In this document: positions 27,371 through 30,369 of the stretch, piece by piece
Position numbering within the stretch: position 1 is the first letter of the stretch
Layout of the letters: the number at the start of each line of letters is the position of its first letter
Assembly: GCA_902794035.1 (NCBI GenBank)
Contig: CADBFN010000012.1
Coordinates: 1 to 47,134, forward strand
DNA: 47,134 bases
Origin: an uncultured bacterium
GTDB lineage: Bacteria; Cyanobacteriota; Vampirovibrionia; Gastranaerophilales; Gastranaerophilaceae
Direction: 5' to 3'
Made by a program: the position numbers and the translations under genes
Notes under the pieces: model-generated
Databases searched by the model: none
What the model was told of the DNA's origin: nothing
What the model saw: the letters and a program-made list of their open reading frames with translations, nothing else

Positions 27371-27490
27371 ATATATATAAAAACATGAACTCTGTAAAAA
27401 TTGCTAATAAGTTAAAACCTACTGGTGCATATTATGTAAAGATATATAAAAATATACTTGATTTTAAATGTTGTTATGATAATATTATTC
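27371..27490. other. Spacer before the L10 leader
   Basis: This AT-rich gap holds no gene that I can support. A possible promoter for the rplJ transcript is TTGATT (27458-27463) with a weak TAATAT (27480-27485) 16 nt later. Confidence 0.35.
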
Positions 27491-27556
27491 TACAACCGCA
27501 GACCGTTAGTGTCGCAAGACTTAATAGATTTATCTGCTAGCCGAGGTTATACCGAA
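27491..27556 (+). ncRNA. L10 leader (ribosomal protein autoregulatory RNA)
   Basis: The conserved blocks of the bacterial L10 leader are present in order: GCAGACCGTTAGTG, a short variable hairpin, ACTTAATAGATTTATCTGC, and TAGCCGAGGTTATACCG. In this family the L10-(L7/L12) complex binds the leader and represses its own operon. It ends about 130 nt before rplJ. The remaining 27557-27688 is an AT-rich leader with a GGTTTAATC / GATTAAACC inverted repeat that could form the regulated structure. Confidence 0.8.
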
Positions 27557-27688
27557 AGTAAATAGTAATTTAAAATAACAATTGACTTTAGTATAAGATT
27601 TTGCGGTTTAATCAGAAAAGCAAAGTCTTTTTTGGTTTTTATAGGTCGATAAAATGTAAGATCGGATTAAACCGATAAAGGAGCAAAA

Positions 27689-28210
27689 ATGGCAACAAAA
27701 GCATTTAAAGCTGAAAAAATTGAAGAAATCAAATCAAAAATAAAAAAGGCTCAAGTTGCAGTTATCACTGAATACAAGGGTTTAACAGTTGAAGAAATCA
27801 CAACTTTAAGACGTGAACTTCAAAAAGACGGTGGCGATTATATGGTTACTAAAAATACATTGGCTAAAATCGCTGTTAAAGGAACCGAATACGAAGTAAT
27901 GACTGAAAAACTTACCGGTCCTGTAGCTATTGCATTTGGTTTTGAAGATCCTGTTGCACCTGCAAAAGCCGTAAAAGCTTTCATTGATAAAGCTAAAAAA
28001 GGTGAAATTTTAGGTGCTGTATTAGACGGGAAATTATTATCCGTTGAAGAAACAAAGGCATTGGCAAATCTTCCATCAAAAGAAGAACTTTTTGCAAAAA
28101 TGCTTGGTTCAATCAACTCTCCTGCTTCAGGTATTGTTGGTTGCGTCAATGGAGTTATGGCATCTCTTACAAGAGCTATTGCGGCTGTAAGAGATCAAAA
28201 AGCTGCTTAA
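27689..28210 (+). CDS. rplJ: 50S ribosomal protein L10 (uL10)
   Basis: Base of the ribosomal stalk. The 173-residue protein shows AVITEYKGLTVEEITTLRRELQ and MVTKNTLAKIAVKG in the rRNA-binding domain, and a C-terminal helix that carries L7/L12 dimers. AAAGGAGC precedes the ATG. Unlike the common order, rplK and rplA are not upstream and rpoB is not downstream, so rplJL stands as a separate unit behind its own leader. Confidence 0.97.
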   Translation: MATKAFKAEKIEEIKSKIKKAQVAVITEYKGLTVEEITTLRRELQKDGGDYMVTKNTLAKIAVKGTEYEVMTEKLTGPVAIAFGFEDPVAPAKAVKAFIDKAKKGEILGAVLDGKLLSVEETKALANLPSKEELFAKMLGSINSPASGIVGCVNGVMASLTRAIAAVRDQKAA

Positions 28211-28313: not shown

Positions 28314-28694
28314 ATGAGTAACGTAGAAACTATTTTAGAATCAATTGAAAAATTAACATTATTAGAAGCTGCTGAATTAGTAAAAGCTATGGAAGAAAAA
28401 TTCGGCGTATCTGCAGCTGCTCCTGTAGCTGTAGCTGCTGCTCCTGCAGCTGGTGCTGCTGCACCTGCTGATGACCCTGATGCTGAAGTATCAGTTATCT
28501 TGGCATCTGTTCCTGCTGATAAGAAAATCGCTGTATTAAAAGAAGTTAGAAACATTACAGGTTTAGGACTTAAAGAAGCTAAAGATTTAGTTGAAGCAGC
28601 TCCTAAAGCAGTTAAAGAAGGCATTAAAAAAGCTGAAGCTGAAGAAATCAAGAAAACTCTTGAAGCAGCTGGTGCAGGTGTTGAAATCAAGTAG
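28314..28694 (+). CDS. rplL: 50S ribosomal protein L7/L12 (bL12)
   Basis: The 126-residue protein has the N-terminal dimerisation domain (to about residue 33), an Ala/Pro-rich hinge, and the factor-binding C-terminal domain with [20 protein letters not shown], whose Lys and Arg residues contact elongation factors. AAAGGAGA precedes the start 103 nt after rplJ. It is followed by a strong hairpin at 28725-28755 and then by two genes with copies of its C-terminal domain. Confidence 0.98.
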
Positions 28695-28695
28695 T

Positions 28696-28724
28696 TTGAT
28701 TTTTCAATATAAAAATGTTATAAT
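28696..28724 (+). promoter_or_regulatory. Promoter for the L7/L12-CTD-like gene pair
   Basis: TTGATT (28696-28701), exactly 17 nt, then consensus TATAAT (28719-28724). It begins right after the rplL stop and predicts a start near 28731, inside the left arm of the terminator hairpin. Confidence 0.7.
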
Positions 28725-28755
28725 AGACGGGCAAATTCTGGGAATTTGTCCGTCT
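28725..28755 (+). terminator. 14-bp hairpin ending the rplJL transcript
   Basis: Positions 28725-28738 pair with 28742-28755 over all 14 positions (one G-T) around a 3-nt loop, followed by ATTTCTTT. Transcripts from the embedded promoter would lack the full left arm and so escape it. Confidence 0.75.
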
Positions 28756-28775
28756 ATTTCTTTATAGGAGAATTT

Positions 28776-29195
28776 ATGTCAGATGAAATATGTACATACA
28801 TAGCATTAGCCCTTTCGCTCATGGTGGTAATACTGAAAGTTGTCGATTCCAAAAAACATTTATTCAATGGTAATAAATACGAAAATACAGTATTGAAACA
28901 AAGACACATTGATGAAATACTTGATGCAACGTGGGGTAAAAAGGAAGAAGATAATGATAATGCAGATAATCAAAATGGCACACAATCTTTTTCTGTTGTT
29001 TTGATTTCCGTTCCAAATCAATATAAAATTTCAGTATTAAAAGAAATTCGAGAAATAACTTTTCTTGGTTTAAAAGAGGCAAAAGACATTATTGAATCAA
29101 CACCGTATGTTATAAAAGAGAACATAAGCAATTCGGAAGCAAGAAATATAAAAAATATTCTTGAAAGGGCAGGGGCAGAAGTCGTAATTAGGTAA
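28776..29195 (+). CDS. Membrane-anchored protein with L7/L12 C-terminal domain (paralogue 1)
   Basis: The 139-residue protein has an N-terminal membrane helix (ICTYIALALSLMVVILKVV), a charged Asn/Asp/Lys linker, and from about residue 72 a domain that aligns without gaps to the C-terminal domain of the rplL product upstream. QYKISVLKEIREITFLGLKEAK corresponds to [22 protein letters not shown]. The factor-binding Lys, Arg and Lys positions are kept, while one conserved Gly is Phe. The N-terminal dimerisation domain of L12 is replaced by the membrane helix, so it cannot join the stalk in the usual way. The ATG at 28776 follows TAGGAGA. It is likely co-transcribed with paralogue 2 after 20 nt. 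The function is unknown. Confidence 0.88.
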   Translation: MSDEICTYIALALSLMVVILKVVDSKKHLFNGNKYENTVLKQRHIDEILDATWGKKEEDNDNADNQNGTQSFSVVLISVPNQYKISVLKEIREITFLGLKEAKDIIESTPYVIKENISNSEARNIKNILERAGAEVVIR

Positions 29196-29215
29196 TTTAA
29201 TTCGGGGGGAACAAA

Positions 29216-29626
29216 ATGTTAGATGAACGATTCTTATATGGCGCAATAGCACTGATGCTGATTATAATTTTAAATGAGTATGTATTTAAAAAATATTTTA
29301 AATTTGATATGGATAAATTTGATGTTGTTCAGTTTTCTCTGAATTTTAAACGTAGATGTCAGATTTATATTAAAAAGATTTTTGGCTGCAGGGATATTGT
29401 TATTCAGAAATCTACAGGGACAAATAGTCTGTTGTTACTAGATTCAGGTGCAAATAAAGCTACTTTTATGGCAACTTTAAGGCAAATAACGGGTATTACC
29501 TATGACCATGCAAAATGGATTGCAAATTCTGCACCTACTGTGTTTATGACAAATATTTCAGCAGATGAAGCCGATTTAACCAAAAAAGCCCTTGAATTTG
29601 TAGGTGCTAAAGTCGAAATTCAATAA
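29216..29626 (+). CDS. Membrane-anchored protein with divergent L7/L12 C-terminal domain (paralogue 2)
   Basis: The 136-residue protein starts with a membrane helix (FLYGAIALMLIIILNEYVF), followed by a basic linker and, from about residue 70, a more divergent L7/L12-CTD-like domain. ANKATFMATLRQITGITYDHAK and SAPTVFMTNISADEADLTKKALEFVGAKVEIQ follow the L12 pattern through to its end. The central Arg and the AK pair are kept; one factor-binding Lys and the GLGLKE loop are lost. GGGGGGA precedes the ATG. It closes the two-gene unit with paralogue 1 before a strong terminator. Confidence 0.82.
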   Translation: MLDERFLYGAIALMLIIILNEYVFKKYFKFDMDKFDVVQFSLNFKRRCQIYIKKIFGCRDIVIQKSTGTNSLLLLDSGANKATFMATLRQITGITYDHAKWIANSAPTVFMTNISADEADLTKKALEFVGAKVEIQ

Positions 29627-29644
29627 TTGATTATAAATATGACA

Positions 29645-29680
29645 ATAAAAAAGTCGGACAATTTTAGTCCGACTTTTTAT
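29645..29680. terminator. Bidirectional terminator between 29626 and 29698
   Basis: AAAAAGTCGGA pairs with TCCGACTTTTT and continues into A/T-rich flanks that give U-tracts on both strands; the two genes converge here. Confidence 0.9.
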
Positions 29681-29697: not shown

Positions 29698-30369
29698 CTA
29701 TTTAACTGTTAATACAAATCCGCCTTTATCGGCATTTTGCAATGCTTCTCCTTCAATTTTGGCTCTAAGATTTTTAATGTATTTGTACACATAATCTCTT
29801 GGTAATTCAAGTAGCTGAGCAAGATCTTTTGCATATACGACTTCATTCAGATGAGATGAGAAGTAATCAAATACTCTTTGTTCTCTGTCTGTTAAAGCCT
29901 TTTTAAATACAACTCTTACTTCGTCCCTAACAACATCGCCTGTTTTTACCTCATTTACAATTTCTTTTTTTGCTTTTTCTGCTTTTTTATTTATAGTTTT
30001 AGCGGCTGATTTTTTCGTTGCTTGTTCAATTTTAACTTCTTCCGCTTTTTTTGCTTCTTTTTTAGAAGATGTTTTAGCAGGTTTTTTATCTTCATTTTGC
30101 AAACTTTTTACTGAGAACGGAGAAACATATAGATCTTTTTCTTTCTCATAAGCTCTGTTTGCGATAGAACTTAGTCTTTCTGCGCCTGAAGACCATTCTG
30201 CTTCTTTTGAAATAACAGGTTTACCATGTAAAACTATATCAACTAAATCATTTGTAGCTTTTTTTTCTTCAATTTTCTTCCCTAATCTGGCAGCAAATTC
30301 TTCAAGTGTTATTTTTTCTAATGAACTTCTCCATTGCTTAATCTCTTCCTTACTTAGATATTCAGCCAT
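29698..30369 (-). CDS. Winged-helix protein with Lys/Ala-rich linker
   Basis: Family not recognised by name. The 223-residue protein has an N-terminal helical region (about 1-80), a long Lys/Ala/Glu-rich linker (about 95-145) resembling histone-like tails, and a C-terminal domain (LTDREQRVFDYFSSH, then KDLAQLLELPRDYVYKYIKNLRAKI and GGFVLTV) with the helix-turn-helix and wing pattern of OmpR-type DNA-binding domains. There is no receiver domain. AAGGAGAT precedes the ATG. A DNA-binding role is likely, its targets unknown. Confidence 0.75.
   Translation of the reverse strand: MAEYLSKEEIKQWRSSLEKITLEEFAARLGKKIEEKKATNDLVDIVLHGKPVISKEAEWSSGAERLSSIANRAYEKEKDLYVSPFSVKSLQNEDKKPAKTSSKKEAKKAEEVKIEQATKKSAAKTINKKAEKAKKEIVNEVKTGDVVRDEVRVVFKKALTDREQRVFDYFSSHLNEVVYAKDLAQLLELPRDYVYKYIKNLRAKIEGEALQNADKGGFVLTVK

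Follow-up and report, generated by a model that had tools for sequence, protein, structure and literature searches.

Predicted membrane-anchored proteins with a bL12 C-terminal domain encoded behind rplL in a genus of Gastranaerophilaceae

Introduction

In bacteria, translation GTPases gain access to the ribosome through the L12 stalk. The C-terminal domain (CTD) of bL12 carries a positive site, formed by helices 4 and 5, that binds IF2, EF-Tu, EF-G and RF3 (available excerpt of PMC6753160). The E. coli numbering of the 62GANK65 motif, and the critical role of its K65, are given in the accessible part of PMC6110070. Outside the stalk, known counterparts of the proteins described here include YqjD, ElaB and YgaM of E. 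coli. These are small membrane proteins with a single helix, and they may recruit the translation machinery to the membrane; as far as the consulted portions of PMC10502375 and PMC8778775 describe them, the helix that anchors them is C-terminal, and they associate with the 30S side by way of the N-terminus.

The window analysed here is a stretch of 47,134 nucleotides from an uncultured member of Gastranaerophilaceae. Two consecutive genes behind its rplL encode small proteins, TMa and TMb, which share the CTD with bL12 in sequence and predicted fold and have a hydrophobic N-terminal helix in place of the bL12 dimerisation domain. Like YqjD, ElaB and YgaM, they are small and have a single helix; unlike in those proteins, the helix of TMb is N-terminal, and the Pfam scan, which returned only PF00542, gave no sequence relation to them. 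Among the matches listed for open-licence PMC articles (titles and abstract starts), there was no description of a membrane-anchored L12 CTD.

Locus organization

The features of the locus are collected in Table 1. The L10 leader ahead of rplJ suggests that rplJL probably has a control of its own. The convergent gene downstream of TMb is a steady neighbour, present in 16 of 17 loci read in the genus and, in addition, at L112 and L093.

Table 1. Features of the rplJL-TMa-TMb locus (positions in the window).
Feature	Position	Strand	Description
L10 leader of rplJL	27478..27642	+	Rfam RF00557, 51.1 bits (gathering score 44)
rplJ (uL10)	27689..28210	+	ORF; named from the L10 leader, its position ahead of rplL and the label in the initial annotation
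rplL (bL12), ribosomal copy	28314..28694	+	PF00542 and PF16320; TIGR00855 154.8 bits (cut-off 84.4)
Extended -10 promoter of the TM genes	28696..28724	+	TTGATT-17-TATAAT, TG one base ahead of the -10
Terminator-like 17-bp hairpin, then T-rich bases	28722..28758	+	Gap between rplL and TMa; overlaps the promoter
TMa gene	28776..29195	+	ATG at 28776, stop ending at 29195; 139 aa
TMb gene	29216..29626	+	ATG at 29216, stop ending at 29626; 136 aa
Terminator-like hairpin	~29648..29678		Gap between TMb and the convergent gene; seen by eye, absent from the scanner list
Convergent gene	29698..30369	convergent to TMb	223 aa, starts MAEYLSKEEIKQW; weak HTH-like match below cut-off

Domain identity and predicted structure

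The initial annotation had described two consecutive genes, each combining a membrane helix with an L12 CTD. Their coordinates were right, and both the profile search and the structural comparison it had suggested bore the domain out. PF00542 (Ribosomal_L12) matched residues 72-138 of TMa with 81.1 bits (E 7.2e-23) and residues 74-136 of TMb with 40.5 bits (E 3.6e-10), both above the curated Pfam cut-off of 25.9, which rules out a chance resemblance to the L12 CTD. It was the sole Pfam family matched in either protein in a scan at E up to 1. The dimerisation domain PF16320, already reported as gone, gave no match in TMa or TMb at that threshold, and the rplL of the locus matched it at 79.7 bits in addition to PF00542. 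The TIGR00855 equivalog of bL12 scored 75.6 bits in TMa and 39 bits in TMb, both below its cut-off of 84.4. Because they lack the dimerisation domain and miss this cut-off, TMa and TMb fall outside bL12 proper. The genome of origin has three PF00542 matches above cut-off, all at the rplL-TMa-TMb locus; a fourth, weak match (L004; 16.8 bits, E 0.014) with ATP synthase-like neighbours was rejected as chance.

AlphaFold2 models were computed as single chains from 38 TMb orthologues (mean pLDDT 77.2, pTM 0.51) and six TMa-like sequences (mean pLDDT 72.9, pTM 0.47). In both models, an N-terminal helix and a low-confidence linker precede a confidently predicted C-terminal domain, whose elements follow the order strand-helix-helix-strand-helix-strand. 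In Foldseek comparisons with the PDB, the E. coli L12 CTD (1ctf) was the top match of TMb, at a TM-score by target of 0.92, 1.0 Å and 37% identity. For TMa it came second, behind an E. coli L7 chain, at a TM-score by target of 0.95, 0.8 Å and 46% identity. A search with the TMb sequence matched 13 chains, 12 of them bL12 and one a coat-protein chain (E 0.006). The C-terminal domains of TMa and TMb are true bL12 CTDs in sequence and predicted fold.

Chains of ClpS, the ClpAP adaptor, ranked lower in the Foldseek lists of both proteins, with TM-scores by target of up to 0.70 and 6-17% identity in the listed matches. These chains are soluble adaptors. The general fold is thus common to TMa, TMb and ClpS, and neither TMa nor TMb had a ClpS family match in Pfam at E up to 1.

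Membrane helix and topology

Hydropathy and the models predict a membrane helix in both proteins. Across the 38 TMb rows, the first helix was N-terminal in every one and hydrophobic, with a best 17-residue mean of 1.93-3.49. In all 38, Lys and Arg were more numerous in the 15 residues after the helix than ahead of it. Under the positive-inside rule, this positive charge C-terminal of the helix predicts a cytosolic L12 domain. TMb, together with TMa as an accessory protein in some species, would then display a bL12 CTD to the cytosol.

Distribution in the genus and beyond

PF00542 was searched in 146 genomes of the order, of which 17 belong to the genus and 129 do not. Each of the 17 genus genomes had two or three matches; the 129 others had one or none, except G102 with two, the better of which is truncated at a contig end. 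A TMb profile built from 16 TMb proteins was run on 46 genus genomes, and TMb was called from the match score and from how far the N-terminal part was covered, since the raw tally includes rplL. The initial annotation had considered that the arrangement might be unique to this assembly; TMb was present in 41 of the 46 genomes, extending into the CTD in 40 and cut by a contig end in one (G174). The five genomes lacking it (G151, G152, G154, G161 and G171) are 66-88% complete and have no rplL match either; every one of the 41 genus genomes with any rplL or TMb match contained TMb.

It had also been proposed to look for the rplJ-rplL-TM-L12 order in other Gastranaerophilales; beyond the genus, no sign of it appeared in the genomes and loci covered here. 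A family-wide search with the TMb profile comprised 239 genomes, 13 of them from the genus. In the remaining 226, the matches listed were all rplL-like; these scored at most 54.2 bits and, like rplL, started at profile position 63 or later, and 13 of the 226 genomes had no match at all. No TM-L12 gene lay behind rplL in the 30 best-scoring loci of other genera, read with flanks of up to 1.5 kb.

All 41 TMb loci were read. In 37 of them, rplL is followed immediately by TMb, or by TMa and then TMb. In G147 and G148, the two genes are at the ends of separate contigs, and in G156 they are separated by a gene of 233 aa whose start, as judged by eye, is prepilin-like. G068 also has them on separate contigs, with TMb intact and its usual downstream neighbours kept. 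Upstream of TMb in this genome (L112 4180-5310) are transposase-like and methylase-like genes, as judged by eye. TMa-like copies occur in six of the 41 genomes (G000, G051, G129, G150, G121 and G157) and comprise about three sequence types.

In G166 and G168, we also observed a further small protein, the third, that ends in an L12-CTD-like part and is encoded away from rplL (L103 292-606; L106 5177-5491). It adjoins a 142-aa protein with a signal-like start and is near-identical between the two species. Spread by phages or plasmids was considered and dropped: the matches were CTD-only, and the annotated ones (P0003) were mostly rplL, many in chromosome-sized records.

Origin and selection

The CTD tree comprised 79 rows and 69 kept columns; its bootstrap was unsettled and a long-branch warning was raised, so its depth is uncertain. 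The 38 TMb rows clustered together, apart from rplL and the TMa-like copies, with a support of 94/79 and in 100% of the 200 bootstrap trees. TMa-like copies were nearer to rplL than to TMb and may have one or several origins. The repeated duplication of the L12 tail proposed initially thus holds as regards the L12 CTD origin, while the tree does not tell one TMa-like origin from several.

In rplL of the genus, VPADKK, one residue longer, replaces GANK, giving K64 K65 in 40 of 40 rows. GANK was found in rplL at 29 of 30 other loci and GTNK at one; TMb retains G62 and N64 in 38 of 38 rows. A further genus, g14, has VPADKK at all eight rplL loci (L131-L138) and one PF00542 match per genome, hence no TMb. 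The idea that TMb is the heir of the old rplL tail was discarded, as VPADKK in rplL and the presence of TMb do not co-vary.

The position of the genes directly 3' of rplL invites the reading that they are functionless, decaying rplL duplicates. The patchy and diverse TMa-like copies (six of 41) agree with it, as does TMb of G163, broken across two frames, possibly by a sequencing error. Against it, 16 positions are invariant across the 38 TMb rows, the promoter described below is conserved, and TMb is kept in every one of the 41 genomes that gave a match. The CTD dN/dS was 0.07-0.13 in five close TMb pairs; over the 275 usable of 703 pairs, its median was 0.22 and its maximum 0.45, with dS near saturation, and for this reason only the close pairs were taken as evidence. 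In these pairs, the TMb CTD is under purifying selection. The conservation of TMb already contradicts decay, which we regard as very improbable.

Promoter and hairpins

The separate TATAAT promoter noted in the initial annotation is real as a conserved motif: TTGATT-17-TGnTATnAT, scoring 13 or 14 of 14, was kept in 34 of 41 upstream regions, with a spacing of 16 in one, compared with 14 of 4100 dinucleotide shuffles, a contrast that overstates independence, as the motif was picked after viewing the gaps and the species are related. The exact pattern, modelled on the site in the window, matched nowhere else in the 1.79 Mb genome; allowing one mismatch added 18 matches, against nine for a backward control. 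Loose promoter scans of the window showed no excess of sites over shuffles. The promoter fits an ordinary sigma-70 pattern.

The terminator claimed for the two genes has a candidate in the hairpin after TMb; the hairpin with T-rich bases lies between rplL and TMa and has the look of a terminator for rplL. The gaps between rplL and the first TM gene all contained a hairpin, of 11-21 bp (37 of 37), a raw count taken without a shuffle control. With a stricter promoter pattern, the hairpin came first in 15 of these gaps and the promoter in 16, and six had no such promoter. We must also note that the overlap of -10 and hairpin seen in the window (28696-28758) is found in about half of the genus, the other half being hairpin-first. 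Because the -10 reaches into the base of the hairpin, the TM transcript should lose part of the 5' arm and escape the terminator, which would still stop transcripts from rplL.

Factor-binding face and proposed function

Positions in rplL, TMa and TMb are given in E. coli residue numbers. In rplL of the genus, K65, I66, L69, K70, R73, L80, E82 and K84 were each present in 40 of 40 rows. The Lys/Arg/Lys surface attributed to the first protein was recovered: TMa of the window retains K65, K70, R73, L80, E82 and K84. Among the six TMa-like rows, R73, L80, K84 and an acid at position 82 were kept in all, and K65 and K70 in four. TMb of the window has K65, R73, A83 and K84, with A66, A70 and an altered GLGLKE loop, matching the description of a protein that kept the Arg and the AK pair and lost the loop. 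Across the TMb rows, R73 was kept in 38 of 38, K65 in 34 and K84 in 32. At the changed positions, A66, T71 and Q74 were present in all 38, A70 in 37 and Y80 in 33; position 82 was free, and the rest of helix 4 was nearly invariant.

Helix 4 of TMb is constrained like that of bL12 but retuned. This is the chief ground for supposing that TMb still binds something through this face, and equally the chief ground for doubting that the full set of bL12 partners is bound. Since A66 (38/38) and A70 (37/38) stand where rplL of the genus has I66 and K70, TMb may not bind the usual factors, and the consistency of both changes argues that it is not simply another usual factor-binding site. A GTPase partner specific to the genus was considered and set aside: PF00009 counts were alike, five to seven in the 17 genus genomes and two to seven in the 129 others (best candidates, at most 20 per genome), which gives no extra translational GTPase particular to the genus.

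We tentatively propose, as a reading that is quite possible if somewhat short of probable, that TMa and TMb act as membrane tethers for translation factors and, by way of these factors, for ribosomes. This reading draws on the L12 CTD fold, the canonical face of TMa, the R73, K65 and K84 of TMb, the charges flanking the helix, the genus-wide presence, the purifying selection and the promoter; the sharing of the fold with ClpS, which is unrelated to the ribosome, counts against it, as do A66 and A70 of TMb and the PF00009 counts. The helix-4/5 face would hold a translation factor, TMa the usual ones and TMb a subset or one special partner. The tethered factor would bring ribosomes to the membrane, where a second, membrane-fixed stalk head would raise the factor concentration for membrane-bound translation; alternatively, factors or ribosomes would be parked there. 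If this is true, a factor-binding domain freed from the ribosome, fixed in the membrane and retained throughout a genus would show that the recruitment of factors can be given a location in the cell, or that the L12 domain can be reused as a tether. With TMa and TMb, the organisation of translation at the membrane can be approached through small proteins open to direct tests.

The same helix 4, invariant in TMb yet unlike that of bL12 (A66, T71, Q74 and A70, with position 82 free), would also suit a CTD repurposed as a membrane-tethered binding module for a non-translation partner, for example an adaptor like ClpS, while TMa may still bind factors. ClpS has the same fold, and the L12 domain occurs in a kinase-like protein (L113), in other membrane proteins and in one orthocaspase (excerpt of PMC8283722). 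The mostly retained K65, R73 and K84 of TMb, its place next to rplL in 37 of 41 genomes and the Pfam scan, in which no ClpS family matched, speak against such a module, which we consider rather unlikely.

A CTD lacking the dimerisation domain should stay out of the stalk, leaving a bound factor off the ribosome. The membrane-bound CTDs might therefore act as a decoy or brake that keeps translation GTPases off ribosomes under stress and slows translation, and the membrane-bound YqjD, ElaB and YgaM are tied to ribosome hibernation in the accessible text of PMC10502375 and PMC8778775. The promoter, however, is of the ordinary sigma-70 pattern, and a decoy of the usual factors should retain K70, which TMb has lost. 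This role seems improbable to us.

Related proteins elsewhere

Outside the genus, 10 of 103 phylum genomes had at least two PF00542 matches each; of 109 genomes from the phylum of a Peptococcaceae genome, three had two. We read 13 loci with extra or weak matches, a subset of those listed; nine of them encode a protein with a hydrophobic stretch (19-residue mean of at least 1.6). L118 encodes 156 aa with one helix and a full CTD, and falls outside the TMb group of the 79-row, 69-column tree, on a long branch. L119 and L122 combine two hydrophobic stretches (by eye) with a CTD, and L123, L124 (796-1245), L125 and L128 a helix with a short part of it. L120 (762-1514) is among the nine with a hydrophobic stretch and an L12-CTD-like part. 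L121 (727-1740) is a membrane-type protein with two PF00542 matches, presumably of the band-7 type.

The membrane-helix proteins of the phylum (L118, L119, L122 and others) share with TMb the N-terminal hydrophobic stretch followed by the CTD; they differ in their linkers and are not beside rplL in the stretches read, and fixation at genus level was seen for TMb alone. The TMb family is the case shown here as genus-wide, and like architectures recur in distant members of the phylum, which makes the locus more than a local oddity. A more far-reaching form of the tether proposal would have a genus-wide, retuned L12 domain act as a second stalk that delivers GTPases to membrane-bound ribosomes, with TMa and TMb differing in factor preference and similar proteins having arisen separately elsewhere in the phylum. 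Taken as a whole, we hold this form to be doubtful.

The L12 CTD is reused in other settings. An L12 domain is listed in one of 473 cyanobacterial orthocaspases in the available part of PMC8283722. An Embleya plasmid (L113 2093-2746) encodes a protein that looks kinase-like by eye and has an L12 CTD at its end (PF00542, 86 bits).
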